DNA of 64,000 bases from Diploptera punctata (taxonomy: Eukaryota; Arthropoda; Insecta; Blattodea; Blaberidae): NCBI GenBank assembly GCA_030220185.1, contig JASPKZ010003432.1:310001-374000 (forward strand), given 5' to 3'. The notes under the pieces were generated by a model. It saw nothing but the letters and a program-made list of their open reading frames with translations. It searched no databases and had not been told where the DNA came from. Shown here piece by piece: positions 4,265-62,720 of this stretch. Position 1 is the first letter of the stretch. The number at the start of each line of letters is the position of its first letter. A program made the position numbers and the translations under genes.

Positions 4265-4376
4265 TGAGACATAAGAAAAATAAATGCTTGGACGGGATTT
4301 GAACCCGGACCTCTGGATTGATACTCCAGTGCGCTACCAATTACGCTACCAAGCAAATCTAGTACAAACATTTATT
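4265..4376 (-). tRNA. tRNA-like cloverleaf (4285-4355) between short inverted repeats
   Basis: On the minus strand a 71-nt sequence folds as a tRNA. The acceptor stem has 7 pairs (TGCTTGG with CCAAGCA). The D stem is GCG/CGC. The anticodon stem is CTGGA/TCCAG around the loop GTATCAA, and the T arm is CGGG-TTCAAAT-CCCG. The predicted anticodon is AUC, which would read GAU; eukaryotic tRNA-Asp normally uses GUC, so this may not be a working tRNA. It is flanked by the inverted words 'agaaaaataaatg' and 'catttatttttct', which suggests a small foldback element with a tRNA core. A third fragment of the same border ('aaataaatgcttggacggga') lies at 4567-4587. Confidence 0.55.
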
Positions 4377-11453: not shown

Positions 11454-14363
11454 TTAGTGAGTTGTTTCTGTTAGTGATTTTATTTTCAATTTATTTCTGA
11501 AAGATGGTAAAGTTTGGCAGTCTCTGACATAGGGTGGAAGTGAATTCCATGTTCTAGCAAGAGAAACTGTAAAAGATTTCGAATAATAGGTAGTATGATG
11601 AGGAGGGATATAAAGGACACTGTGCTCAAGGGATCGGGTATCTAAGTTATGTGTATCAGAGAGTTTAGTGAAGCGGTGTGATAAATAATAAGGTAAAGAT
11701 GTGTGTAATATGTTATAGAGTAGGCATAGGGAATGGATGGTTCTACGATCTTGAAGACGAAGCCATGACAATTGTTCCAGGGATGGTGTAACGTGATCAA
11801 ATCTACGTATACCACAAATAAAACGTATGCAAGAATTGTGAACACGTTGAAGTCTTTGGGTAAGAACAGTATTTAGGTCAGTAAAAAGAGTATCACAATA
11901 ATCAAAATGGGGCATTGCGAGTGTTTCTACTAGCATTTTTCTTAGAGAAAACGGTAAACAATTTCTTATACGATTTAATGAGTGTATTATTGAGAAGATA
12001 GTTTTGCAAATGTTATTTATTTGTTTATTCCAAATTAAATGTTTATCCATAAACACTCCTAGATTTTTTACTGTCTCACTATAAGGGATCTGAACCCCAT
12101 TAAGTGACACATGTAATACTGCATTTGTGTTAATTGAGGATAATAGTCTCTGATGGCCCATAATGATTGCTTGTGTCTTTCTAGGATTTAATTCAAGTCC
12201 ATATTTCTCTGTCCACGCCGTTAGCGAGTCAAGGTCCTCGTTAATTTTGGTTACCGCGTCATTTAAAGAATATTTGTCTGAGTGAAGGTAGATCTGCATG
12301 TCGTCCGCAAATAAATGATGTTTGCAATGTTTTAGGGAGTCAGAAATGTCGTTTATATAGATTGAAAAAAGCAATGGGCCGAGCACCGAGCCCTGTTGAA
12401 CTCCAGCTTTACGGTAGGTCCAAGAAGAGCGTAATGTAGAATTTCCTACAACATATTGCTGGCGCTCACGAAGGTAGGAGTTGAACCATTGCGTGACACT
12501 GTCAGAAAGTGAGAGGTTTTTTAGTTTAAGCAACAATAAGTCCAAGTCTACCGTGTCAAATGCTTTACTAAAGTCAAGTAGTGTAAGAATAGTAAGTTTT
12601 CGATTATCAGATGCTTCGCGTATGTCTTCACATATATTTAGTAGAGCAGTATTTGTATTGTGTCCTGTCCTAAAGCCTGATTGGTATTGATCTAAAAGGT
12701 CGTGTTCAGTTAGGTAGTCAGTCAGTTGTTTGTGGACTAATCGTTCCAAAGCTTTTGAAAGGGTAGGTAAAATACTAATGGGTCGAAAATCGTTAGGAGT
12801 TAAGGGAGTTTTTACTTTCGGGAGTGGGCGTACAATTGCTTGCTTCCATAATGTGGGATATATAGAGGTTTGTAGTGAGGAGTTGAAAACATGAGTTATG
12901 GTAGGTAGTATAACGTCGATTATTTTGTTAAGTAGAGTGATATTTATACGGTCAGTACCTTCTGCTTTTGTTTTTATTCGTTTGAGAGCTTTCTTTATGT
13001 CATTTTCTGTAAGATATGAAAAATGGAAATGTTCTCTGTCTGGTGGATTTGTCAATAGTAGTTCACTTGTTGTATGTGTTTTGTCTTTAGGAGTAAAGAA
13101 TGTGCTTGTAAAATGGTTATTAAGTGTGTTCAGAGAAACAGGTAGTTTTTCTACCTGTGTGTCTTTCCTTCCTACACCCATTTTATTCAGATTTTTCCAA
13201 ATATCTGGGTTATTGTTATTAGGTTCAGTAAGGCTGTATAGATGTCTAAGTTTGGCGTTTCTGATAGTTTGTGTAGTCTTGTTTCGTAACCGTTTATAGT
13301 GATTAAGATTTATATCAGTTTTGTCGACTCTATATTTCCGATATGCTGCGTCTCTTTCAGTCATCAAGTCACGAATGTTAGCAGACATCCAGGGAGCAGG
13401 GTGTCGTTTCACTAGTTTAGTTTTCAGTGGAGCGTGTCTGTCATATAGTTGTAATATAAGGTTATTTAATGCCTCAACTTTTTCGTCAACAGAATGCAAC
13501 GTCCATATAGTATGCCAGGGTAATTTTATAGCGTCTTCAAGTAGAGCTGCATTGTTTATATGTTTTAGGTCTCTATATGTGATAGTCTTACGAGCTAGTT
13601 TAGGGCACTGCAGTGAATATGCTAAGAATATAATATCATGTGCTGATATTCCGGGAGCTGACAGTTGCCCGTGGGTTAGTACTCTGTCTGGATTATTAGT
13701 AGCAATTAAGTCAAGTAAAGTCTCAGAATGATTGGTGTGATGTGTAGGCTGTAAGGGAAGGATAGTCATATCACAAACTTGGAACGCGGACATAAGCTGT
13801 TGTGTATGTCTGTTGTCAGTGTCTAGTATATTTATATTAAAGTCACCCATGACGATAACGTGTTCATATTGTATACGTGCGTTTTGTAGAGCGGATTCTA
13901 TTTCTGCTATTTTTTTCATTTTAGGGGGTTGGTACACTACACAAAGAAGGCATTTTTTGAAGCTTGCGTATATTTCTATAAACATAATTTCAGGAGATGT
14001 CTCGTTATTAGAAAAGTATACAGACTTAGGGCAAAGGTCTGTCCTAACGAAGACACCAACACCGCCCCCTCGACTATGTACACGATCATGTCTAAGAAAA
14101 GTATAACCATCCATGTCAATTAAACTAGAATTAATGGAGGGAGTGAGCCATGTTTCTGATACGAGAATAGCATGAATATTGGAAGAAGAAAAAATCATTC
14201 TAACTTCGTCTGTATGTGCAGTTAAGCTTTGTGCGTTCAAGTGAACCACATGTAGGGAAGACGGGAAGGGGGAGAATGCTGTTTCTAGAACCTGTCTTGC
14301 ATTATTGTTGTTTGGAAGGGGTTTGAGAAGGGTAGTGTCCTCTAACCTGTCAGAGACCGCCAA
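11454..14363 (-). CDS. LINE ORF2: apurinic-type endonuclease plus reverse transcriptase (969 codons)
   Basis: This encodes the enzyme that nicks target DNA and copies the element's RNA. Domains in order: an exonuclease-endonuclease-phosphatase fold at residues 36-247 (HLNAQS 41-46, E70 in VSETW, GDFN 173-176, SAHD 240-243), a linker, then reverse transcriptase at about 500-760. RT motifs are FRPIS 526-530, LLDFSKAFD 595-603, GVQQGSVLGPLLF 654-666 and the catalytic FADD 685-688. A C-terminal region ends in TWNSLPP (938-944). The canonical SDH of the endonuclease reads SAH, which could be a family trait or a loss. The frame opens at a TTG. No in-frame ATG lies between the upstream stop (near 14405) and residue 56, inside the endonuclease domain, so translation must use a non-AUG start or reinitiation, or a start was lost. 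Confidence 0.93.
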   Translation of the reverse strand: MAVSDRLEDTTLLKPLPNNNNARQVLETAFSPFPSSLHVVHLNAQSLTAHTDEVRMIFSSSNIHAILVSETWLTPSINSSLIDMDGYTFLRHDRVHSRGGGVGVFVRTDLCPKSVYFSNNETSPEIMFIEIYASFKKCLLCVVYQPPKMKKIAEIESALQNARIQYEHVIVMGDFNINILDTDNRHTQQLMSAFQVCDMTILPLQPTHHTNHSETLLDLIATNNPDRVLTHGQLSAPGISAHDIIFLAYSLQCPKLARKTITYRDLKHINNAALLEDAIKLPWHTIWTLHSVDEKVEALNNLILQLYDRHAPLKTKLVKRHPAPWMSANIRDLMTERDAAYRKYRVDKTDINLNHYKRLRNKTTQTIRNAKLRHLYSLTEPNNNNPDIWKNLNKMGVGRKDTQVEKLPVSLNTLNNHFTSTFFTPKDKTHTTSELLLTNPPDREHFHFSYLTENDIKKALKRIKTKAEGTDRINITLLNKIIDVILPTITHVFNSSLQTSIYPTLWKQAIVRPLPKVKTPLTPNDFRPISILPTLSKALERLVHKQLTDYLTEHDLLDQYQSGFRTGHNTNTALLNICEDIREASDNRKLTILTLLDFSKAFDTVDLDLLLLKLKNLSLSDSVTQWFNSYLRERQQYVVGNSTLRSSWTYRKAGVQQGSVLGPLLFSIYINDISDSLKHCKHHLFADDMQIYLHSDKYSLNDAVTKINEDLDSLTAWTEKYGLELNPRKTQAIIMGHQRLLSSINTNAVLHVSLNGVQIPYSETVKNLGVFMDKHLIWNKQINNICKTIFSIIHSLNRIRNCLPFSLRKMLVETLAMPHFDYCDTLFTDLNTVLTQRLQRVHNSCIRFICGIRRFDHVTPSLEQLSWLRLQDRRTIHSLCLLYNILHTSLPYYLSHRFTKLSDTHNLDTRSLEHSVLYIPPHHTTYYSKSFTVSLARTWNSLPPYVRDCQTLPSFRNKLKIKSLTETTH

Positions 14364-14591
14364 ATGAATAGCATTATTTGGATGGAAAATTTTAAAAATA
14401 TTTTAACTAGAATTATAAGAAAAGAACAAGTCACTAATATCTTATTCAAATATTAAATTAATAAATAAAGTAAAATTTCTAAATATAATACTAATAATTA
14501 ATGTGAAATTTCTAAATATAATTTTAATAATTTATATAAAAGTGCTAAATTGGGGATATGGTATCACTGGGCGTGTTTGCACTAGGTAGAT
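14364..14591 (-). other. AT-rich spacer between LINE ORF1 and ORF2
   Basis: About 230 bp with an imperfect direct repeat ('gaaatttctaaatataat' twice near 14470-14520 on the + strand as 'aaatttctaaatataat'). An ATG near 14374 is out of frame with ORF2 and gives only about ten codons. Confidence 0.7.
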
Positions 14592-15248
14592 TTACATATC
14601 AGAGGCCCGGGTGATGATGCGTTTGGTATCTCCATTTTTCACATGTATTGCGCCATCAATTGTCCACACATTTGTGACGCCAAATTTTGTGATGCAGTCC
14701 TTTAACAATTTATATCTAATTTGGGTGAGATCTTCTCTTACTGTGATCCCACTGCCTTTCAATTGTTTTTTATTTTGGAAGACCTCCCTTCTCTTTCTAT
14801 AACTGATGAACTTAACAATAACAGGCCGTGGTCGATCCGACTTTTTCCCAACCCTGTGACTCCTGTCGATATCACAGGTTTCTAATTTAACTCCAATTTT
14901 GGAGGCCACGTCGATTGCTATATTGTCCGTATCTTCACCATCCTGTTCAGGTATACCGAAAATACGTAGACACTGTCGACGTTGGTATTGCTCTAGCGAG
15001 TCGGTTTTCTCACTTAACTGTTGTTCCAGTTTTAATATTTTGTTGTCCCTCTCCTGAAGCGAGAGTTCCAACTGCCTAATAACTTCCGTATTACGGTCTA
15101 TAGTTACCTTTAGCTCCGATACAATAGCCTCACGCACGGAGTCCTTCAACAGCTGCAACATGGCTGGATCCCGCAAACATTCTTGGACCACACGCTTAGT
15201 TATTTCTTCTTTGCTTTCTTCACAATTTCTTGTTTTACGTGGAGCCAT
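14592..15248 (-). CDS. LINE ORF1: coiled-coil RNA-binding protein (218 codons)
   Basis: This is probably the nucleic-acid chaperone that coats the element's RNA. I start it at the ATG at 15248 (MAPRKTRNCEE); an in-frame ATG 13 codons upstream adds a hydrophobic, unlikely leader. Counting from that upstream ATG, residues 50-100 form a coiled coil rich in E, Q, L and K (RQLELSLQERDNKILKLEQQ). Residues 105-175 resemble the RRM-like core of L1-type ORF1 proteins (RIFGIPE, DIDRSHRVGK, VIVKFISYRKRREVF). A C-terminal basic domain follows (GITVREDLTQIRYKLL). The length is normal for such proteins. No frameshift or internal stop is present. Confidence 0.85.
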   Translation of the reverse strand: MAPRKTRNCEESKEEITKRVVQECLRDPAMLQLLKDSVREAIVSELKVTIDRNTEVIRQLELSLQERDNKILKLEQQLSEKTDSLEQYQRRQCLRIFGIPEQDGEDTDNIAIDVASKIGVKLETCDIDRSHRVGKKSDRPRPVIVKFISYRKRREVFQNKKQLKGSGITVREDLTQIRYKLLKDCITKFGVTNVWTIDGAIHVKNGDTKRIITRASDM

Positions 15249-15395
15249 TATGCGTAAAATTAAGCTACAAACAAAATAAATTCGCAATATCGATATTACG
15301 TTTATAAAAACAAACTAACACCTGCTGAAAATTGTGCAAAAACACGAGCAACCAGTTTCACTCTTATTCACAATCCGCCATGACACTTTAACATT

Positions 15396-30912: not shown

Positions 30913-31461
30913 ATATTACTTGAAGTCCCGGCCACACGTTGCTGTGGCTAAGGTATACGTTAAAAATTTTAATTAAGTTGCTGTCTTTCAGCCAGATTAC
31001 TTAAAACTAATACACACGAAATTAATAATATTGAAAATAAAATAAACACTGAACACACTTAAATTATGAAATAATCAATATTTGTAATTCAATTGAAATT
31101 CGCGGTTGCAACAAAAAGCACAGTCATCTGGATCTCTCTTTGTTAAATAATAAACCAATTACCTTACCATCTGTTAGAATTGTATGGAACTCACATATAA
31201 TTACACCGCCATCTGTTAGAATCGTATGGAACTCACAGATAATTACACCGCCATCTGTTAGAATCGTATGGAACTCACAGATAATTATAACTCTTTGTTA
31301 AATAATAAACAAATAGTTTGCCATAAAAAATAATGCGACTATAAATTTAGTTGTAAATCACCCTAAGTCTCAAGTTGGATCAAACTGCACACAGTGTGCA
31401 AAATTTTATTAAAATCGGTTCAGTAGTTTAGGATTACATCGCGGACAAACAACGTGACACG

Positions 31462-31495
<34 letters not shown>
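30913..31495 (+). mobile_element. Non-autonomous element 'X', copy 1
   Basis: It starts 'gaagtcccggccacacgtt' and ends 'gacaaacaacgtgacacgaa' followed by (TA)n. It matches 37250-37795 in inverted orientation over its whole length. The middle has a 42-bp unit in about 2.5 tandem copies (units at 31203 and 31245, partial at about 31160; word 'acaccgccatctgttagaat'). There is no ORF or TIR. The opening 'CCCGG...GCTGTGG' and the TATA-rich end resemble the 'CCCGG' family at 35.9 and 54.5 kb in layout only. The class is unknown. Confidence 0.75.
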
Positions 31496-34765: not shown

Positions 34766-35925
34766 TATAATGTGTAGTCTGCCATTTGCGTTATCACTTG
34801 AAAAAATTAAACAAATGCTTGTTTACTTGTAAAATTATAAATTAAATATGGCATGGAAGCTAACCTATGGCGGACTCACACCCAAAACGATCTCCTTCTC
34901 TATGTTATCCATTCCTGTGTTCGAAATGAATAGAAGGAAATAATAACAGTTTCTACCTAAAAAAAAGGGTAATTTGCACAATGCACTATTTTAAACAACG
35001 TAAGCTTTGAGCCTAGATTCGATATACCTTCAATAAGAAATCGGCTGTGATCCTTCGATGAAACGTTCCAGCATTTGCTTTACAGTCAGGGAAAACCATA
35101 GAAAACTCTGGTCCCAACAGTAGACCTAAGAAAGCTTCGGGTCGTATTCCAGTATTTCGTAGGGTGTGAGCCCAGTAGCCAGGTTTCCTTCCGCTGAAGG
35201 CTTGGGAAGACACGTGCTGACTGATGAAAAAAAAAATAGTTATATCACAAACGAAGTTGCCGAACTAGAAGAATCCACTGATCAGAACTGTAATGTTGAG
35301 CTTTTAATGTGTTCGGCTAATATATTTCCGACCTCAATATCCTCATGGAATAGTCAGAATTTTTTCACTAGTCCCTTGAGTAGGCGAGATATCTCCCAAA
35401 TTGCCGAACTAGATAGTTCTAACCTCTGTACCACGGTTTATTAATACTTAAATTGGAATAATTTAGGGGGGAGGGGAATCTGGAATTGTCAATGCATGCA
35501 TGGAGATAACCTAAACAAATTTTACTTAAATGTTAATGAGAATCAGCCGACCTTATCCCTGGGCGAAGTCACGACTATAAATATGACAGTGGGTTGATTT
35601 AACGCTGCAGGACCAACCCATTTAATTAGAATTAATTTACAAGTACCTGTAACCAACATAGCATTCCTCTTTTTCGTATGAATGTCATTCGTAGAAGTGG
35701 CAGCAGGTTCACATACCGATGTAGATACCGGGATTAAATTTACTATATGCAGAAGTGAATTGAACTTTTGACTATTAAAATGGGCTATGTCCACTTTTGG
35801 TGAATTTACAAGTGAGCGCATCTACTGATAACTCAAGAGTATATTTATGTTTATAATTATATTTTTCTAGTCTACCAAGTGTCTATTGAAATAAAGAAAA
35901 TATAATTATGTAGGCCTGTACTACT
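34766..35925. other. No recognised feature
   Basis: Frames of 66-92 codons on both strands, none with a motif. 35013-35213 and 35166-35444 may hide a degraded SINE, but I cannot identify it. Confidence 0.4.
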
Positions 35926-36472
35926 TATATACTAGCTAATACCCGGCGTCCGCTGCTACACCTAAATACATGATGTGTTTTAGTTAAATAAGCAAAAGAA
36001 AAAATAGATATAAATTTATATCGTTATTATTTGTATATACGCCGTGCTGATTACCCGGCGTTGCCCGGGAATCTATGAAATTCCGATATACTTGGCATCA
36101 ATGAAATAAAAAAATGGCGATTGTGAGTTATTTGTAAAAGATAAACATATGCTGTCGTGGACTTTTTTGTAGAGTTTTTTTTGAGATATTCAATTCTGTG
36201 TAAATTAATTTGGTGTATTTGTTATGGTTAGACAGCGTAAGCCATTTGAGGGTAAAAAAAGGGGACTTTTTCACGTTTTTCACCACAAAGGGTGTTTTTA
36301 AGGGTGTAGGAGTTCAGTATCTCAACTCTCTTATAGCCAATGTTCATCCCGGGAATCTCCTGAACATTTTGCAAAAAAACTCCATCCCAATCGGATCAAC
36401 AGTATGGCCGCGCATAAAGTACGAACAAACGAACAAACATTTTTATATATTAGATAGATAGATGATTTAAAC
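35926..36472 (+). mobile_element. 'CCCGG' dispersed element, copy 1
   Basis: Starts 'actagctaatacccggcgt', has a second 'attacccggcgttgcccggg' at about 36050, a body with 'agacagcgtaagccatttga' and ends 'ccgcgcataaagtacgaac', then a TATATATTAGA-type end at 36448. It is collinear with 54500-55620, which carries extra tandem units. There is no ORF with a motif. The end joins a short (GATA)n. The class is unknown; elements with this opening are widespread in insects. Confidence 0.7.
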
Positions 36473-37249
36473 CAGTAAGAAAACTTCAGCTTTCTCGAAA
36501 TATGACTAAATGGACATGACAAATGTTAATACTCCAGAGCTCAGTTAATCTCTATCAGATTAACCGACACTTAAGGATAGTTCCCAAATTTGGCGGAACG
36601 CATAATGATTATATTAATCATAAATGATTTTAATAACCGATTCCTCCTTGAAGGGCAATTAATTGAAGTTGCATGAACAATTGCACCTGCTATCATTTTA
36701 GTCTTCATTTTCAGTTCAATTTATAAACTGTTCATAATTTGGCGAAAGTTTATTGTATTTTTGTGACTTTTCCGGCTTTTTTAATCGCAATGTAATGAAA
36801 TCAGACACCGTATGAAATAGGAAAATAATTGAATGAAATACTACCTAGAGACCGACGCTGACTGCATAGTCTGGCAAGATCCTATAAACTTCTCTCCACA
36901 TACATAAATAGAGACTGGCAGGCAGGCCAAGAAATAGTTAAGAGCATAACATGAACCATTATTTGAGGGATGATAATTATACAAGGAACCATTAGCAAAT
37001 ATTCAGGATACAGTCAGATTCAACCCAGGAAGTTACTGTGTGTTTCGAATAGGAAACTGGGTTGCCATTTTAACAGTATTTTCTTGAGAGAAATCCTTAA
37101 ATAAAATTGAAATATGCAACACAGCAGGTACAGAGTTGTAAGATGTAGCCGTCCAAGCTACCCCCTCTTAAAGATAAAAAAAAGTTACCACTTGTCACTG
37201 AGCTCATGCGGACCTGTACTATCCTGTGTAAAAGTGTCGACTCTCATAT
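36473..37249. other. No recognised feature
   Basis: No repeat or coding signal identified. Confidence 0.45.
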
Positions 37250-37795
37250 CTTAATATATAAAAATTTCGTGTCACTTTGTTTGTCCGCGATGGAATCCTA
37301 AACTACTGAACCGATTTTAATAAAATTTTGCACGCTGTGTGCAGTTTGATCCCAACTTGAGACTTAGGGTAGTTTATAACTAAATTTATAGTCGCATTAT
37401 TTTTTTATTGCAAATTATTTGTTTATTATTTAACAAAGAGTTATAATTATCTGTGAGTTCCATACGATTCTAACGATGGCGGTGTAATTATCTGTGAGTT
37501 TCCATACGATTCTAACAGATGGCGGTGTAAGATAATTTGGTAAGGTAATTGGTTTATTATTTAACAAAGAGAGATCCAGATGGCTGTGCTTTTTGTTGCA
37601 ACCGCGAATTTCAATTGAATTACAAATATTGATTATTTCATAATTTAAGTGTGCTCAGTGTTTATTTTATTTTCAATATTATTAATTTCGTGTGTATTAG
37701 TTTTAAGTAATCTGGCTGAAAGACAGCAATTTAATTTAAAATTTTAACGTATACCTTAGCCACAGCAACGCGTGGCCGGGACTTCTAGTTTACTA
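37250..37795 (-). mobile_element. Non-autonomous element 'X', copy 2
   Basis: Inverted relative to 30913-31495 and collinear with it: 'tttcgtgtcactttgtttg' at left, the 42-bp units near 37445-37525, and 'gccacagcaacgcgtggccg' at right. It has one unit fewer than copy 1. Together the two form a 6-kb-apart inverted pair. Confidence 0.75.
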
Positions 37796-42375: not shown

Positions 42376-42609
42376 ATGACACTTGGACACAAGGTATACA
42401 GGAAAAAGACTCACACAGACAGATACCTACATAAGCGGTCCAACCATCATCCCAGACAAAAACGCGGAATAATTAAAACCCTGGTGGAACGAGCCAAAAG
42501 GATTTCGGAACCACAGTATCTACAAGAAGAAATTAATCATCTCCAAGCAGCGTTTCAATCCAATGGATACAGCAAAACAGATTTTTCGCCGAGCCATAAA
42601 TCCCAATAA
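42376..42609 (+). pseudogene. Penelope-like protein, linker between RT and endonuclease
   Basis: The frame reads LGHKVYRKKTHTDRYLH, HHPRQKRGIIKTLVERAKRI and INHLQAAFQSNGYS, the conserved stretch after the RT of Penelope-like proteins (a region with THTDRYLH and KR.I..TL). The frame is lost near 42585 and continues in a second frame (IFRRAINPNKYKFENGN) to about 42655, then shifts again into the endonuclease frame. Confidence 0.85.
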
Positions 42610-42653
42610 ATACAAATTCGAAAACGGGAACAAGGAGGAGGCAAAGGGGAAAG

Positions 42654-43298
42654 GTGTACCTACCATATATCAAGACAATAACGGAGAGAATTGGTCGAAT
42701 ATTAAATAAATATAACATATCTACAACCTACAAGCCAACACAAAAAATCAGCAATATACTGCGCCCAGCCAAAGATACAAGATATCCGTTAAGTACTGCC
42801 GGTATATATCGCATCCCTTGCAGTTGTGGACAGGTTTATATCGGCACAACAAAAAGAATGGTTACCAGAAGATTGCAAGAACACAAGAGGCATTGCAGAC
42901 TAAAACAAAAAGAAAAATCAGCCGTAGCGGAACACTGGATGAACAACCAAGAACATATAATAAGATTCGAAGAAACACAGGTATTGTCCCAAACATCACA
43001 TTATTACACCAGACTGTACAGAGAAGCCATTGAAATATATAAACACAAAAATTCCTTTAACAAAAAAGAAGAAACCATGAAGATAAACAAAATCTGGATC
43101 CCGGCACTGCACAATACGACAACGAAGCCTATGACTTCTGCTAGCGACAGCCTGGACAAAACAGCACGCAACACGGACCGCGCAGAAAACCGCCTCTCCA
43201 CCAGGGGCGTGCCTATAAATAGGGAGGGAGTTTCCAACGACCAGCCAGTCTGCAGCCGACTGTTGAGGAGTTCACAGAGAGCACGCAGTATCTCCTGA
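42654..43298 (+). pseudogene. Penelope-like GIY-YIG endonuclease domain
   Basis: This domain cuts the chromosomal target to prime reverse transcription. In the 214-codon frame, GIY is at residues 50-52, the CSC cysteines (C56, C58) lie in the loop after it, YIG at 62-64, R72-R73 and H77 in RRLQEH, and a Glu at 124 in REAIEIYKH. These are the expected catalytic and metal-binding positions of a GIY-YIG nuclease. After about residue 160 the frame runs into non-coding terminal sequence. The domain itself is intact, but without an RT upstream it is a dead fragment. Confidence 0.9.
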
Positions 43299-44530: not shown

Positions 44531-45449
44531 TTTTTACACGCTTTATATTAGCTTGACCTGTATCTATCTATGTGACGGAATCTTTCAATGCGTTTTTTCA
44601 CCCACTTAAAATCATTGGATCGCCTTGAAACTTTGTATACTTGTGAAGGACCCGTGACAATAATTTCATTTTGTTTTTTCTAAAATCCTAGCCAGAATCA
44701 TCAGAAAATAAAAAACAAGTGTCTTTGTGTCTATGTAACGGAATCTTTGAACACGATTTTCACCCACTTAGAAACATTGGACCGACTTGAAACTTTGTAT
44801 ACTTGTAAAGGACCCGTGACAATACAATAATTTCATGTTTTGTTTCTAAAATCCTGGCCAGAATCATCAGAAAATAAAAAAAAATAGGTTGCGGACTTGT
44901 CAACTTTTTAATCAATCGTTGTAAGAGCTCAGTTGGTAGAGCGGTGAACTGTAGTGGTATATAATTTCAGTAATCCATAGGTCGCTGGTTCAAATCCGGC
45001 TGGGAGGGATTTTTTAGAAGAGTATTACTTTTAGCTCATACTACACTAGTATTGAAGATATTTTTATTTTTATCTTATTCTGTAAGATATTAAAACTAAA
45101 AAATAAAAAATAAACAATAGTTTTAAAAAATTAAAACAACACGCTTTATTAGAAAACCGAACTAAAAAATGAAAAATAATTTTAATTTCCAACACGCTTG
45201 AGATAAAATTAAAGTGGTCAACAAAAAAATCATCTCCAACACATATAGAATAAAACTAGAGTTATCAACAAAAAGAAAATAATTTTACCATCAAAAGCGT
45301 GGAGTGCTCTATATCAATTAATATATTTCATAATAAACAGATATTGGTAAAAATAAAGTCTTTAAGAACAAAATGTAAAAATCATAAAAAGCACCCCACG
45401 CTTTTGATGGTAAAATTATTTTCTTTTTGTTGATAATTCTAGTTTTATT
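44531..45449 (+). mobile_element. tRNA-Tyr-containing palindromic element, unit 1 (right arm truncated)
   Basis: Order: terminal head 'tttttacacgctttatatta' (44531) with 'gcttgacctgtatc', two ~163-bp direct units (starting near 44574 and 44737), tRNA-Tyr-like sequence (44916-45009), T-run, AT-rich flank, left arm (about 45107-45305), loop, and the start of the right arm. It stops at about 45449, where the next unit's head begins. No protein is encoded. Confidence 0.85.
44916..45015 (+). tRNA. tRNA-Tyr-like sequence with intron, copy 1 (probable pseudogene)
   Basis: D arm and A box 'gagctcagttggtagagcgg', anticodon GTA at 44951-44953, an 18-nt intron at 44955-44972 placed after position 37 as in eukaryotic tRNA-Tyr, and a T arm with B box 'ggttcaaatcc' (44987-44997). 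The acceptor stem is not complementary, so it is unlikely to be a charged tRNA. One base change weakens the anticodon stem (GTGAA for GTGGA). Six T follow (45010-45015), enough for Pol III termination. Confidence 0.8.
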
Positions 45450-46236
45450 ACATGCTTGACCTGTATCTATCTATCTATCTATCTATCCATCTATCCATCT
45501 ATCTATGTAACTGAATTTTTCAATGCAATTTTCACCCACTTAAAATAATTGGATCGACTTGAAATTTTGAATACTTGTAAAGCACCCGTGACAATATAAT
45601 AATTTCATATTTCTTTTCTAAAATCCTGCCAGATCATCAGAAAATAAAATAAATAATAGTTTTAAAAAACTAAAACAGCACGCTTTATTAGAAAACCGAA
45701 CTCAAAAATGAAAAATAATTTTAATTTCCAACACGCTTGGGATAAATTTAAAGTGGTCAACAAAAAAATCATCTCCAACACATATAGAATAAAACTAGAG
45801 TTATCAACAAAAAGAAAATAATTTTACCATCAAAAGCGTGGGGTGCTCTATATCAATTAATATATTTGATAATAAACAGATATTGGTAAAAGTGAAGTCT
45901 CTAAGAAGAACATGTAAACGTCATAAAAGGCACCCCACGCTTTTGATGGTAAAATTATTTTCTTTTTGTTGATAACTCTAGTTTTATTCTATATGTGTTG
46001 GAGATGATTTTTTTGTTGACCACTTTAAATTTATCCCAAGCGTGTTGGAAATTAAAATTATTTTTCATTTTTGAGTTCGGTTTTCTAATAAAGCGTGCTG
46101 TTTTAGTTTTTTAAAACTATTATTTATTTTTTATTTTTTAGTTTTAATATTTTACAGAATAAAATAAGAATGTAAATATATTTAAATTCCATACTATTGT
46201 AGTATGAGCTAAAATTATTACTCTTCTAAAAAAAAA

Positions 46237-46330
46237 TCCTCCCCAGCCGGATTCGAACCAGAGACCTATGGATTACTGAAATTATATACCACTAGTTCAC
46301 CGCTCTACCAACTGAGCTCTGACAACGATT
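46237..46330 (-). tRNA. tRNA-Tyr-like sequence with intron, copy 2 (pseudogene)
   Basis: Minus strand. The A-box block and intron are as in copy 1. The anticodon region has lost two bases (CTAG where CTGTAG is expected), so no tyrosine anticodon remains. The B box is 'ggttcgaatcc'. Nine A on the plus strand (46228-46236) give a T-run on the transcribed strand. Confidence 0.78.
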
Positions 46331-46853
46331 GACTAAAAAGTCGACAAGTTCGTAACCTATTATACCAGTTTCAATGTTTTTGATTTTCTGATGATTCTGG
46401 CCAGGAATTTAGAAATAAAATATGAAATTATTGTAGTGTCACGGGTCCTTTACAAGTATACAAAGTTGGAAGTCGATCCAATGCTTCTAAGTGGGTGAAA
46501 ATCGTGTTCAAAGATTCCGTTACATAAATACAAAAACACTTTTTTTGATTTGATGATGATTCTGGCCAGGATTTTAGAAAATGAATATGAAATTATTGCA
46601 TTGTCACGGGTCCTTTACAAGTATACAAAGTTTCAAGTCTAGCCTATGTTTCTAAGTGGGTGAAAATCGGGTTCAAAAATTCCGTTACATAAATACAAAA
46701 ACACTTTTTTTGATTTTCTGATGATTCTGGCCAGGATTTTAGAAAATAAATATGAAATCATTGTATTGTCACGGGTCCTTTACAAGTATACAAAATTTCA
46801 AGTCGATCCAATTATTTTAAGTGGGTGAAAAACGCGATGAAAAATTCAGTTAC

Positions 46854-46940
<87 letters not shown>
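46854..46940. repeat. (GATA)n microsatellite
   Basis: About 21 uninterrupted GATA units at the inner edge of the element's inverted head. The left side of the same element has the complementary (TATC)n at 45460-45505. Confidence 0.97.
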
Positions 46941-46970
46941 CAGGTCAAGCTAATATAAAGCGTGTAAAAA

Positions 46971-48115
46971 AGTGTCTTTGTATTTATGTAACGGAATCTT
47001 CGAACACGATTTTCACCCACTTAGAAACATTGGGTAGGCTTGAAACTTTGTATACTTGTAAAGGGCCCGTGACAATACAACAATTTCATATTTATTTTCT
47101 AAAATCCTGGCCATAATCATCAGAAAATCAAAAAAGTGTTTTTGTATCAATGTAACGGAATCTTTCAACGCGATTTTCACCCACTTACAAATATTGGATA
47201 GACTTGAAACTTTGTATACTTGTAAAGGACCCGTGACAATGCAATAATTTCATATTTATTTTCTAAAATCCTGGCCAGAATCGTCAGAAACTCAACAAAA
47301 GTGTCTTTGTATTTATGTAACGGAATCTTTGAACACGATTTTCACCCACTTAGAAACATTGGATCGACTTGAAACTTTGTATACTTGTAAAGGGCCCGTG
47401 ACACTACAATAATTTCATATTTTGTTTCTAAAATCGTGGCCAGAATCATCAGAAAATCAAAAAAATTAAAACTGGTATAATAGGTTGCGGACTTGTCGAC
47501 TTTTTAGTCAATCGTTGTAAGAGCTCAGTTGGTAGAGCGGTGGATTAGTGGTATATAATTTCAGTAATCCATAGGTCGGTGGTTCAAATCCGGCTGGGCA
47601 GGATTTTTTTTAGAAAAGTAATACTTTTAGCTCATACTACAATAGTATCGAATTTAAATATATTTACATTTTATCTTATTCTGTAAAATATTAAAACTAA
47701 AAAATTAAAAATAAATAATAGTTTTACAAAACTAAAACAACACGCTTTATTAGAAAAACAAACTAAAAAAATTAAAAATAATTTTAATTTCCAACACGCT
47801 TGGGATAAAGTTAAAGTGGATCAACAAAAAAATCATCTCCAACACATATAGAATAAAACTAGAGTTATCAACAAAAAGAAAATAATTTTACCATCAAAAG
47901 CGTGGGGTGCTTTTTATGATTTTTACATTTTCTTCTTAGAGTCTTTACTTTTACCAATATTTGTTTATTATCAAATATATTAATTGTTGGAGATGATTTT
48001 TTTGTTGATCCACTTTAACTTTATCACAAGCGTGTTAGAAATTAAAATTATTTTTCATTTTTTTAGTTTGTTTTTCTAATAAAGCGTGTTGTTTTAGTTT
48101 TTTAAAACTATTACT
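46971..48115 (+). mobile_element. tRNA-Tyr-containing palindromic element, unit 3
   Basis: Three direct 163-166-bp units (from 46990, 47153 and 47319), tRNA-Tyr-like copy 3 (47511-47602), flank, left arm to about 47910, loop, then a right arm with an internal deletion ('taattgttggagatgattt' joins loop to mid-arm near 47985), ending at about 48115. It begins directly after unit 2's terminus without its own head. Confidence 0.85.
47511..47611 (+). tRNA. tRNA-Tyr-like sequence with intron, copy 3 (pseudogene)
   Basis: The same layout, with B box at 47581-47591 and a run of eight T at 47604-47611. The anticodon loop has lost three bases (GGATTAG instead of GGACTGTAG), while the intron word and both promoter boxes are unchanged. 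Confidence 0.78.
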
Positions 48116-49171
48116 TATATGATTCTGATTCTCTCTTTTCATCTCTATCCCTCAAGTTCCAAAGTTCGAGGATTCAAACCGAGCGATATCAATACGTAAC
48201 AATCCTGAGGAAGTAATATCCTGGGGAAGTAAAATAATGAGTACCTGTTGTATATACATGGAACATAAAATAAACTCAAGTCAAAAATAAGAGAATTCTG
48301 AACAAACTTTGTCGGCCCTTTAATGACCCTAAACAGTTAAAGAACATCGTTAAATAAAGTACTTCTTCTTCTTCTTCCTTCCAAGTATTAGGCCAAGGCC
48401 TGTTACGATCCTATAGAAAATTTTCCCTCCAGAGTTTGCGGGAAATTCTCGTATAAGACTTGAAAGCATAATAATAGTCCCTTCGATTGGTTGCTGGCCA
48501 AAGGAAGGCAAGACCAGTGATGGGTCTGCCATCTTATAGCCTCTGGTCAGGCTTTTCTGGAGAAGAAAAGAAAATAAAGGAAAGAAGAAATGGAAGAAAG
48601 GAAAGACTCCCTAGCCCTCGGATGCCCTAATAGCGTCGGAGTCGAAAAAACAAGAGTTAACCAAGAGAGGTCAGATAGTAAAGTTAAAAGAGTGCAAAAC
48701 ACAAGTAAGTGGAAGAAATGTTTGCTCAGCTTGGGCACCTTGTGGTCGCCATCCACATATCCCCTAGATGAGGACCCCTGAGGCTATTACCATGAAAGTA
48801 ACGTAAAGAGAACGGAATAATAAAAAATAAAGGTGAAAAGTGATAAATTGAACGAAAAGACAAATGGTTAAAGTGTAAAGGGAACATAAGGGAAAATCAG
48901 AAACCTAAAGAGGAATAGAGAGAGAATATTGGAGTCCGTTAAACACATATTGAAGCAATAGCAAAGAGCTGGTTGTCTGTACACAGTAGCAAGTAGCGTT
49001 ATGGCTAACGAATTTGATGAAACAGACTTTACATAGCGATAGAGAATCATACAGAATTATTTATTTGCGTACATTATCCAACCTCTGAAGGCATGAACCG
49101 TTTCTATTGACCTAACAACTTGCAACACATATACACCTGTATACCAAACACACATGTCCACATAACAAGAT
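48116..49171. other. No recognised gene; partly purine-rich
   Basis: 48355-48600 contains 'cttcttcttcttccttcc' and 'ttaggccaaggcctgtta', perhaps part of a further dispersed repeat. 48540-48960 is A/G-rich on the plus strand. The 60-70-codon frames have no motif. Confidence 0.4.
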
Positions 49172-49400
49172 TGTATTTAACATTTTCCAATACTGTTATT
49201 TTAACACAGTTACAATAATGGAACATATTATAATGATATTGTGAAAAGAAAAATTAATGTCTGAACCAGGAGTCGAACCGTGGACCTCTCATTCTCCGTA
49301 GGAATGTGCAGTCCACTACACCATTCTAGACTTGGTACAAATATCATTATACTATATTATTGGAACTGTGTTAAAATAACAGTATTGGAAAATGTTAAAT
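49172..49400 (-). mobile_element. Foldback element with ~59-bp arms and tRNA-like core
   Basis: The arms 49172-49232 and 49341-49400 are inverted copies ('ttttaacacagtt' / 'aactgtgttaaaa', 'ccaatactgttatt' / 'aataacagtattgg'). The core 49258-49335 is tRNA-like on the minus strand: 'tggtgtagtggactgcaca' (A box), an anticodon-type stem CATTC/GAATG, 'cggttcgactcc' (B box), and partial pairing of GTCTAGA with TTCAGAC. A second copy of the core lies at 49561-49638 on the plus strand. Whether the tRNA-like core functions is unknown. Confidence 0.75.
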
Positions 49401-49539: not shown

Positions 49540-49695
49540 AAGAATTGTTAAGTGTTTGTTCCAAGTCTAAAATGGTGTGGTGGGCTGCACACTCCTACGG
49601 AGAAGGAGGGATCCACGGTTCGATCCCTGGTTCAGACAATTTTTCTTTTCACAATATCATTATAATATTATAAGAGTATTTATATTTCAAATTTA
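49540..49695 (+). mobile_element. Second, partial copy of the tRNA-core foldback element
   Basis: The core at 49561-49638 reads 'ccaagtctaaaatggtgtgg' ... 'ggttcgatccctggttcaga', followed by 'ttttcttttcacaatatcat', which equals the inner part of the 49.2-kb arm. The outer arm parts are absent. It lies inverted, about 230 bp from copy 1. Confidence 0.7.
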
Positions 49696-54499: not shown

Positions 54500-55620
54500 A
54501 TTTACTTACTACTAATACCCGGCATGCTCTGCTACGCCTAAATAAATTAAATATTGAGAGTTAATTAATTATATAGTATACACTTCGACGAATCATGGGA
54601 GTTGCTAGAGTATTTTTTTTATTTTAAACTAGCTAATATCCGGCGTGCGCTGCTACGTCTAAATAAATGAAAATTAATGTGCTTTTATGTTTAGTTGGGT
54701 AAGTGGAAGGAAAAATAATTATAAATTTAGATTTTTTTAAATACCCCGTGCTGATTACCCGGTGTTGCCCGGGAATCTACTTATCCCGATCTTCTTGACA
54801 TAAATAAGCTGATAATACGAAATAATGCATTTTATGTTTGTTTAAATAAGTAAAACGAAAAATTGATGTCGTAATTATTTTTAGATACCCCGTGCTGTTT
54901 ACCCGGTGTTGCCGGGAATCTACTCATCCCGATCTTCTTAGCATAAATGAGCTGAAAGACGAAAATTAGTGCACTTCTTATGATTAGTTGAATAAGTAAA
55001 ATCAACAATAATTATAAATGTAATCGTAATTGTTTTAAGATTTCACGTGCTGATTACCCGGTGTTGCCTGGGAATCTACTTACCTCTATCTCCTTGGCAT
55101 AAATGAGCTAAAAGACAAAATTCGATATTGTGAGTTATCCGTAAAAGAATACCCGCCATGTGGTGCCATGCTTGCACAGGAATCTACATGTACACTTGTC
55201 TCGAACTTCTTGGCTTCAAAAACGACAAAAATGGTTTTTGTGAGTTATCCGTAAGAGAGAGAAACATATGCTGTCGCGGACTTTTTCGTAGAACTTTTTA
55301 AGATACTCAGTTCTGTGTAGGCTTACATTAATTTTGTGTATTTGTTATGGTTTAGACAGCGTAAGCCATTTAAGCGTTCAAAGAGCTACTTTTTTCACGT
55401 TTTCCACTACAAAGGGCGATTTTTGAAGGGTGTAGGAGTTGAGTAACAGAACTCTCGCATAGCCTATGTTCATCCAGGGAATCTCCTGAATATTTTGCAA
55501 AAAGCCCCATCGCAATCGGATCAACGGTATGGCCGCGCATAAAGTACGAACAAACAAATAAAAAACATACAAACAAACATACAAACAAACAAACATGCAC
55601 TTTTATATATTAGATTTCAG
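54500..55620 (+). mobile_element. 'CCCGG' dispersed element, tandemly expanded copy
   Basis: Openings at 54510 and 54641 ('actagctaatatccggcgtg'). Then three to four ~145-155-bp units, each with 'acccggtgttgcc.gggaatctac' (54757, 54901, 55056). The unique right half has 'gacagcgtaagccattta' and 'ggccgcgcataaagtacgaa', and the end is TATATATTAGA at 55604. Compared with 35926-36472 this copy has two to three extra units. It is non-coding; the V/C/L-rich minus frames come from (ACAA)n-like repeats at 55555-55595. Confidence 0.78.
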
Positions 55621-56524: not shown

Positions 56525-57445
56525 TTTTTTACACCCTTTATATTAGCTTGACCTGTATCTGTGTAACGGAATCTTTCAACGCGATTTTCACCCACTTAAA
56601 GTCATTGGATCGACTTTAAACTTTGTATACTTGTAAAGGGCCAATGACAATACAATAATTTCATAAATGTTTCTACAATCCTGGCCAGAATCAGCAGAAA
56701 ATCAAAATAATAAAAACCGGTATAATATATTGCGGACTTACCAACTTCTTACTCAATCGTTGTAAGAGCTCAGTTGGTAGAGCGGTGGACTGTAGTGGTA
56801 TATAATTTCAGTAATCCATAAGTCGCTGGTTCAAATCCTGCCCGGAGGATTTTTTTTAGTAGAGTATTACTTTTAGCTCATACTACAATTGTATCGAATT
56901 TTAAAATATTTACATTTTTATCTTATTCTATAAAATATTAAAAATAAAAAAAATAATTAATAAATAATAGTTTGAAAAAACTAAAACAACACGCTTTATT
57001 AGAAAACCGAACTAAAAAATGAAAAATAATTTTAATTTCCAACACGTTTGGAATAAAATTAAAGTGGTCAACAAAAAAAATCATCTCCAACACATCTAGA
57101 ATAAAACTAGAGTTATCTACAAAAAAATTGTCATCAAAAGCGTGGGGTGCCCTATATCAATTAATATATTTGATAATACGTAGACAGATATTGGTAAAAG
57201 TAAAGTCTCCAAGAAGAAAACGTAAAAACTATAAAAAGCACCCCACGCTTTTGATGGTAAAATGTTTTTTTTTTTTTTTTGGATAAGTCTAGTTTTATTC
57301 TAGATGTTTTGGAGATGATTCTTTTTTTGTTGACTACTTTAATTTTATCCCAAGCGTGTTGGAAATTAAGCTTATTTTTAATGTTTTAGTTCGGTTTTCT
57401 AATAAAGCGTGTTGTTTTAGTTTTTTCAAACTATTATTTATTACT
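56525..57445 (+). mobile_element. tRNA-Tyr-containing palindromic element, distant copy 4
   Basis: The same order as unit 1 in single form: head (56525, 'tagcttgacctgtatct'), one 163-bp-type unit (from about 56565), tRNA-Tyr-like copy 4 (56755-56849), T-run, flank, left arm (56958-57148), loop of about 90 bp, right arm (about 57237-57445). It ends at the right arm without the inverted tRNA and units, so it is a half-element. Its separation from the 44.5-kb array by ~8 kb shows that the unit disperses and is not only a local satellite. Confidence 0.87.
56755..56857 (+). tRNA. tRNA-Tyr-like sequence with intron, copy 4
   Basis: The best-preserved anticodon arm of the four: GTGGA-CTGTAG, 18-nt intron 56796-56813, then ATCCAT, giving anticodon GTA. 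The B box is 'ggttcaaatcc'. The T arm has lost one pair (CCTGC for CCGGC). The acceptor stem is unpaired as in the other copies. Eight T lie at 56850-56857. Confidence 0.8.
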
Positions 57446-61639: not shown

Positions 61640-62720
61640 AAATCAAAACACAGAACAATATCTTGATTTAATACTTAGTAGAGTACCCTTTAGTTTTAAT
61701 CACCGCTTAGTATCGTCGTTGAATTGAATTAACCATTTTTTTATTGTCTCGGGTGTGATTTTATTCCATTGTTCTCTAATGAAATGTTTTACCTCTTCTT
61801 TTGAAGTCCCTTTCCTTTTACGGACATTTTTCTTCAAATCAGCCTAATGATTCTCTATTGGATTTAGATCAGCTGACTGTGGGCGTGTTCTCAGCTGCTT
61901 CGGAACGTTTCAGATCAACCAAAGCTTGTTAATGTCTGCGGTATGTTTACTGTCATTGTCTTGTTGGAATATGTAATTCTGTCCCAGTCCCATTTTTATG
62001 ACACTTTGATTTACATGTACCTTCAATATCCTGTTGTAATGCCACTATCCCGTTATTCTGTCAATGAAGTGCAGGTTTCCAACCCCGCTGAAAGACATTA
62101 CAGGCCCAGATCATAACTGAACCTCCTCCGTGTTTCATAGTCGGTAGAGTATTCACCTTATTATCAGCAGTGTTGTGTTTTCTCCAAACTCTTATCACAC
62201 CATCCGATCCGAAAAGATATATTTTGCTTTCATCGGACCAAATTACACGATCCCAAAACTCCTGTGATTTGTTTACATACTCTTTTGCAAAGAGTAATCT
62301 TGCAGCACAATTTTGTTCACTTTTTCGCGGTCTGCGGCCATGATAATTATGCGACCACAGCACACGATGAACTGTCTGATTGCTCTTTTGCTTTCCGGAC
62401 ACTTCTTCCACCATGGGCTTAAGTTGCGGGACTCTAATCTGAGGATGTGCTCTAACATGCCCGAGTATAAAACGTTTTCTTTAATTATTTATTGCTCTAC
62501 CTTTACGCTGAATATTTTCTATGGTACCTTCATACTTGAACTTGTTAACTATGCACTGTACAGTTACATGTGATTTGGCTACTATATTGCCTATTTCCCT
62601 CAGTGATTTACCTCTTAAAGCAAGGTTGACAGTAGTTATCTTTAAGTCTGAACTTAACTGCATTCTCTTCTCCATTGTGTACACAAATGAAGCAAGTACG
62701 GCAATGCTATGAAACAACCT
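61640..62720 (-). pseudogene. Tc1-like transposase, decayed but nearly full span
   Basis: Minus-strand parts in order. The N-terminal helix-turn-helix (62717-62481) reads SSDLKITTVNLALRGKSLREIGNIV, VTVQCIVNKF. Then comes a middle with RRPRKSEQNCAARLLFAKEYV. Next (62414-62061) is FWDRVIWSDESKIYLFGSDG (first D), VWRKHN and TMKHGGGSVMIWAC. Beyond the frame break at about 62060 are QDNDSKHTA (second D) and SADLNPIENH (E). All three catalytic residues are present, but stops and frameshifts break the frame in several places. It is a different subfamily from the copy at 58744-59751. Confidence 0.9.

Follow-up and report, generated by a model that had tools for sequence, protein, structure and literature searches.

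A repetitive element that joins a tRNA-Tyr-like sequence to a long 3' palindrome is present in a 64-kb stretch of the Diploptera punctata genome (contig JASPKZ010003432.1, positions 310,001 to 374,000 of the 3.12-Gb assembly GCA_030220185.1). This whole stretch is called the window, and all coordinates given are those of the window unless a locus is named. Self-comparison of the window, at the array near 45 kb and again at 56.5 kb, yields four copies of this one element, A to C at 44531-48118 and D at 56525-57442. The family to which they belong is dispersed, has sharp common ends, and is probably a non-autonomous Helentron (HINE, DINE-1-like) of the rolling-circle class, one that would be mobilised by an autonomous partner, would have captured a tRNA gene and would restore its terminal hairpin by templating one arm on the other.

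The genome was searched with window positions 45000-45600 as query, a segment that starts at the 3' end of the tRNA part and includes the adjoining AT-rich flank, so that the sample is skewed towards query-like copies. The first look gave 6535 candidates, only 40 of which were scored; all 40 (the window and 39 other places) belong to the family, and thousands of copies are therefore likely in the genome. All 39 places besides the window were retrieved. A loose pattern finds the tRNA core in every one of these 39 loci, a count that reflects in part where the query begins, and head and tail occur together in 36, three of which (L045-L047) are irregular in length or tail. The central tandem units number one to four in 35 of these 36 loci (one unit in 5 loci, two in 11, three in 16, four in 3), and seven in the last, an irregular locus. 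Thirty-three copies were aligned after removal of two loci whose tail lies over 900 nt away from the core and four sharing another's right flank; their mean divergence from the majority sequence is 4.8% (range 2.8-16.9%).

The element begins with a T-run and ACACGCTTTATATTAG... and ends in ...CTATTATTTATT. A 30-nt head pattern matches the window without mismatch at 44534, 46938 (minus strand) and 56529, and a 35-nt 3'-end pattern matches seven times at no more than 2 mismatches, with a chance expectation of 0 in both cases. Head and tail contain an 11-bp subterminal inverted repeat, ACACGCTTTAT / ATAAAGCGTGT, which is perfect at 11 of 11 positions, a match equalled in none of 2000 shuffles; ATAAAGCGTGT sits about 30 nt from the 3' end. 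The consensus also has a 3' stem-loop with a 7-bp stem (one G-T pair) and a 4-nt loop, 11 nt from the terminus, which in copy D is a 6-bp stem with a 4-nt loop about 9 nt from the terminus.

Insertion sites were compared at 29 loci, after removal of three without a head, three with ends off the strict pattern and four duplicates; L032 and L037 were both retained although their flanks are 96-100% alike. Across these loci the 5' T-run varies in length from 1 to 7. No locus has a flank duplication of at least 3 nt (0/29), and 2 of 29 have one at 2 nt, where 2.6 are expected. The insertion at L027 lies within a repeat of which empty copies, 76-79% identical, are found in the window (54621-54805 and 35921-36080) and in L017, and the join shows that a T-run was entered without duplication. 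The neighbourhood that supplies this empty site also holds three tandem copies of a ~143-bp repeat (54669-55122). Except in five near-identical pairs, the flanks of the loci differ while their ends agree. Because the common ends occur elsewhere in the genome, the window array is not merely a local duplication, and the first proposal of the preliminary description, a non-autonomous element into which a tRNA-Tyr gene was taken up, is supported, for a family that is dispersed.

Within a single copy the parts follow one another thus: T-run and head, microsatellite, one to several ~165-bp units, a ~48-nt spacer, the tRNA-Tyr-like part, a T-run, a ~107-nt AT-rich flank, and the left arm, loop and right arm, the last of which is the element end. 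Element A (44531-45449, plus strand) has a complete 5' end (44531-44571) comprising the T-run, ACACGCTTTAT and the start of the microsatellite, followed by two central units (44565-44883), the tRNA-Tyr-like sequence with its intron and T-run (44918-45007; Rfam tRNA 29.7 bits), the AT flank, and a left arm, loop and partial right arm (45110-45449), the palindrome stopping at position 340 of 480. Element B (45454-48118, plus strand) consists of a truncated head, microsatellite and one unit, then the nested copy C, then three further units (46969-47465), the tRNA-Tyr-like sequence (47514-47604), the AT flank and a rearranged palindrome (47711-48118) with its loop partly flipped and shortened. Element C (about 45648-46971, minus strand, limits ambiguous within A-runs) is complete and lies reversed in the T/A run between two B units, with its 3' terminus at the low-coordinate end. 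Its palindrome, made up of 3'-terminal arm, loop and mirrored arm, spans 45649-46128 (arms 213 nt and 98% complementary, some flanking A/T included), and is followed by the tRNA-Tyr-like sequence (46236-46326), three units (46377-46866), a tetranucleotide microsatellite (GATA/TATC, 46854-46940) and the 5' terminus (46928-46971), which adjoins the A-run of the next B unit. TATC microsatellites stand at the A-B junction as well as in C. Element D (56525-57442, plus strand) is complete and solo, with one central unit, a tRNA-Tyr-like sequence at 56767-56841 (Rfam tRNA 35.2 bits) and a palindromic 3' module at 56960-57442 that has the 3'-end sequence in both arms.

The position of C follows from its junctions. 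Its 5' terminus joins the B unit sequence ...ACAAAGACAC at a T-run, its 3' terminus ...CTATTATTTATT continues into TTATTTTCTGATGATC of the adjacent B unit, and units without interruption read ...ACAC(T-run)GATTTTCTGATGATTC or nearly so; C is thus nested in the T-run between two B central units. The preliminary description had seen three adjoining units on one plan, the second mirrored. The parts it listed are all present, as judged by self-comparison, head and tail pattern matches, the palindrome fold and Rfam, but the arrangement is instead two plus-strand copies, A and B, with a complete minus-strand copy nested in B. A Pol III (RNA polymerase III) promoter locked between inverted arms, as then envisaged, is not supported, for in the single copy the tRNA-like part lies 5' of the palindrome; it looks enclosed because C is nested backwards in B. 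Among the dimensions first given, the ~163-bp units prove to be ~164-165 bp long, the 18-nt intron is 17-18 nt depending on where its ends are placed, and the ~200-bp arms are 199 bp in the consensus. That no protein is encoded holds, in that no stop-to-stop open reading frame (ORF) of at least 130 codons overlaps the window copies. Inverse heads set against the same A-run, like that at window 46970, were also seen in L009 (2090-2240) and L041 (1890-2040), both in script orientation, with recurrent nested insertion and head-to-head dimer formation as alternatives. T/A runs between central units may be recurrent insertion targets.

Canonical Helitrons have 5' TC and 3' CTRR ends and insert between A and T. 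This class was rejected, as the present ends are T-run...ATTATTTATT. The layout had been thought unlike that of any named class of transposable element. A head, a microsatellite, central repeats of ~160 bp, subterminal inverted repeats, a 3' stem-loop and a T-rich target entered without duplication are, however, the anatomy of HINE and DINE-1-like elements, as described in the available text of PMC4067079 and PMC7492417. HINEs of the mite Metaseiulus, Culex and Drosophila (PMC4067079) are likewise non-coding, with subterminal inverted repeats near both ends, a 3' stem-loop, variable T-run termini, T-rich insertion without duplication, and microsatellites or tandem repeats in some copies. The present element differs from them in its whole tRNA gene and its palindromic 3' module with ~200-bp arms, and its 3' subterminal repeat lies about 30 bp from the end, compared with 38-60 bp in the mite HINEs. 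DINE-1/INE-1 of Drosophila (PMC4067079) shares the 5' subterminal repeat, microsatellite, central repeats, 3' subterminal repeat and stem-loop, but has beside the 5' subterminal repeat a short inverted repeat that was not found here. Oyster Cg_HINE/pearl (PMC7492417) is similar in a left module that ends in a microsatellite of mostly 4-nt motif, in satellite-like central repeats, and in a right module with subterminal repeat and palindrome; it differs in that this right module is ~60 bp, where the present element has a tRNA part, an AT flank and a 480-bp palindrome, and in the short 5' inverted repeat described for Cg_HINE. Mite HINEs, unlike DINE-1 and the oyster type, are also without the short 5' inverted repeat. 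The word tRNA has no occurrence in the available text of PMC4067079 or of PMC7492417.

The mirror image of the element's 3' terminus marks the start of the palindrome's left arm, and in the majority sequence the arms are complementary at 199 of 199 pairs. Arm-to-arm identity within a copy averages 95.2%, and the palindrome of the inverted copy C has a predicted fold of -232 kcal/mol, compared with an average of -41.5 over 100 shuffles (z = -48). Positions changed in both arms of one copy number 63 over the 33 aligned copies, where column totals predict 16. Of these 63 double changes, 54 are complementary; they fall at 25 positions and come from 21 of the copies. Sliding the register by 1 to 7 (ten registers) gave 0-5 complementary double changes, and dealing the right arms among copies gave a mean of 11.3 and a maximum of 26 in 500 shuffles. 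Given the excess of matching substitutions within single copies (54 versus the shuffled mean of 11.3), we conclude that the two arms undergo mutual correction, at least in the source lineages. Copy D, which lies outside the 33, likewise has C in place of A within the 3'-end sequence of each arm. Most other arm substitutions affect one side only (206 on the left and 229 on the right in total), resembling post-insertion decay. Either folding of the hairpin while the DNA is single-stranded or extrusion of a cruciform followed by gene conversion could produce the matched changes.

A palindrome that starts at the mirror of the 3' terminus is also what a stand-alone element with ~200-bp inverted ends would show, and the family could be a composite, made up of a HINE with central repeats and a separate foldback element or MITE (miniature inverted-repeat transposable element) that landed 3' of a tRNA-Tyr copy, the two later moving jointly. 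L045 does have a palindrome piece next to the main copy, though this is cut by the locus edge. Against such an origin, the 5' head and the 3' arm have the 11-bp subterminal repeat in common, so that the 3' arm belongs to the same element, and none of the 39 loci, which were picked out with a query covering the tRNA end and AT flank, has a complete palindrome-only copy. We consider a composite origin unlikely.

The tRNA part reaches the Rfam tRNA gathering score in two of the four window copies (56767-56841 and 44926-45000) and in eight of the 39 fetched loci (L014, L015, L019, L020, L022, L031, L038 and L042, in converted coordinates); four other Rfam matches among the fetched loci fall outside the element. 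Without its intron, the tRNA part is identical to an insect tRNA-Tyr exon sequence at 63 of 76 columns, end to end and with the acceptor strands included, and to a human tRNA-Tyr sequence at 60 of 76. The same alignment against tRNA-like sequences of the window gave 50 columns for Asp, 43 for Ser and 35 for Arg. The tRNA-Asp in question is intact-looking (4284-4355, minus strand; Rfam 59.3 bits), and an inverted repeat pair at 49225-49341 and 49555-49668, possibly a tRNA-derived short interspersed element (SINE), is called tRNA-Arg and tRNA-Ser by ARAGORN, is under the Rfam gathering score and also matches the L029 flank.

A count over the 33 aligned copies gives an exact B box, GGTTCRAATCC, in 21, with a T-run directly 3'. 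In the same count, wobble included, 3-5 of the 7 acceptor-stem pairs form in the usual register, and 3-6 (5 in 26 of the 33 copies) when the register is moved by the single inserted base; the A-box region is without T8, relative to the canonical form; and the anticodon context is GAACTCTA in 10 copies and exactly GAACTGTA in 9. Neither the consensus nor the window copies yield a tRNA call in ARAGORN. A functional tRNA-Tyr gene was rejected on the imperfect acceptor, the variable anticodon context, the A box without T8 and the negative ARAGORN result. When the tRNA parts of the window copies were folded, 45 of 200 shuffles folded as well for D, 5 for A, 23 for C and 1 for B; the folds of two of the four copies thus surpass most shuffles in stability, and by eye no cloverleaf was recognisable in the four predicted folds. 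Column identity rises from 0.905 in the units through 0.912 (spacer) and 0.918 (tRNA part) to 0.958 (AT flank) and 0.963 (arms); the position of the query raises the last two values. We rejected selection on the tRNA part, since its identity is no higher than that of its neighbours and it therefore gives no sign of use. Judging from the sequence, a whole tRNA-Tyr gene was probably taken in together with its intron, the persistence of which would imply capture at the DNA level. The tRNA part is most likely a decayed passenger now, and at most a weak Pol III promoter with a T-run terminator. Directly 5' of it is a small perfect hairpin, GACTTTTTAGTC (window 47498-47509; exact GTCGACTTTTTAGTC in 13 of 33 copies), which might be an older 3' stem-loop bypassed at capture.

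The exact B box in 21 copies with its adjoining T-run, and the presence of the tRNA part in all 39 loci, would agree with retention by function, either as a Pol III transcript or through the opening of DNA for rolling-circle initiation, though the second observation owes something to a query that starts at the tRNA 3' end. The lack of excess conservation, together with the defects of A box, acceptor, anticodon context and ARAGORN call, makes such retention improbable in our view. Tyrosine tRNA sequence followed by a T-run could also have come from a tRNA-Tyr-derived SINE that inserted into a HINE and was then amplified jointly with it, and tRNA-derived promoters are typical of SINEs. This history appears very unlikely: the gene is full-length and intron-bearing, it is followed by a T-run and by nothing recognisable as a SINE tail, and its flanks are constant in 24 of 25 aligned rows, the remaining row (L017_3474) being a spurious pattern match. 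For the element as a whole, SINE was rejected as a class because the tRNA part lies inside a larger element with constant neighbours and no duplication is found at the element ends. Finally, local segmental duplication of a tRNA gene neighbourhood, an alternative left in the preliminary description, would suit the three adjoining copies of the window and the near-identical pairs L012/L013, L016/L022, L023/L024, L031/L042 and L032/L037 (96-100%), which are duplications or duplicate assembly contigs, but dispersed copies with common ends in unrelated flanks and the empty site for L027 leave it virtually no probability.

Several observations weigh against the assignment of the family to non-autonomous Helentrons or against parts of the history proposed for it. 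If two Ts of the run are counted as flank, the raw counts become 5 of 29 loci with a match at 2 nt, 2 of 29 with one at 3 nt and none with a longer one. The sites examined closely comprise one paralogous empty site and one nested site, and the identity of the former, 76-79%, is under the 90% or more applied to empty sites in the available text of PMC4067079. No short inverted repeat was found beside the 5' subterminal repeat, either in the head consensus by eye or in the fold of the D head. No autonomous Helentron with these ends was seen, in a domain scan confined to eight window ORFs, which contain no Rep, helicase or endonuclease domain. With respect to the palindrome, all but 9 of the 54 matching arm changes occur in more than one copy, and shared ancestry inflates their number. 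With respect to the cargo, the window tRNA-Asp agrees at as many as 50 of 76 columns, which leaves the Tyr assignment to the insect and human comparison sequences, to the intron and to a GTA anticodon found in some copies, and the tRNA part is no more conserved than its surroundings (0.918 against 0.905-0.963).

The window contains further repeats and coding remnants. A pair of ORFs resembling those of long interspersed elements (11454-15314, minus strand) specifies an endonuclease and reverse transcriptase of 982 aa and an ORF1-like protein of 240 aa; for one LINE ORF of the window the closest named relatives are from Periplaneta americana (64% identity) and Blattella germanica (61%), and another relative is at 84%. 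A 232-aa ORF at 42600-43298 has no Pfam match and by eye is like the GIY-YIG endonuclease of Penelope-like elements. A Tc-type transposase fragment (PF01498) is located at 62061-62480 on the minus strand, and an inverted pair at 30918-31483 and 37246-37789 is 85% identical with internal 42-bp tandem repeats.

The non-autonomous Helentron reading suggests the following history. The Rep/helicase of an autonomous Helentron would mobilise the element by rolling-circle replication through single-stranded DNA. An ancestral element may have acquired an entire tRNA-Tyr gene as DNA, perhaps through read-through of its own terminator, and a duplication of the element's 3' end in inverse orientation would have produced the ~200-bp hairpin. 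When single-stranded or extruded, the hairpin arms would template each other, and the palindrome would in this way stay near-perfect in active lineages. Mirrored arrays such as that in the window would arise because T-runs between central repeats are insertion targets.

Helitron-class elements are known to carry protein-gene fragments. The type of element described here is known as well, and it is the tRNA cargo and the long hairpin that look unusual. Our literature search, which covered mostly titles and the starts of abstracts and subscription papers thinly, turned up no recognisable tRNA-bearing Helentron or earlier account of the present family, and no long self-corrected 3' palindrome. 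By the available text of PMC10701932, capture of a non-coding RNA by a Helitron-class element would be a first. The Arabidopsis tRNA-Cys cluster of that report is alike in having tRNA genes within repeats annotated as Helitron-class; in contrast, the present element has defined termini and dispersed copies. The cargo here is a tRNA gene that retains its intron and aligns over its full length, and the element carrying it has defined ends. We suggest tentatively, and with some doubt, that D. punctata harbours a rolling-circle element whose ~200-bp 3' hairpin is renewed by self-templated copying and acts as terminator or primer, that it has spread a Pol III tRNA-Tyr promoter to perhaps thousands of sites, and that it is possibly the first case in an animal of capture and amplification of a non-coding RNA gene by the Helitron class. 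The co-varying arms are the mutational footprint of arm-to-arm correction, and through them a hairpin step of a rolling-circle-type transposon can be tested on sequence data alone, the replication mechanism of this superfamily being for the most part inferred.

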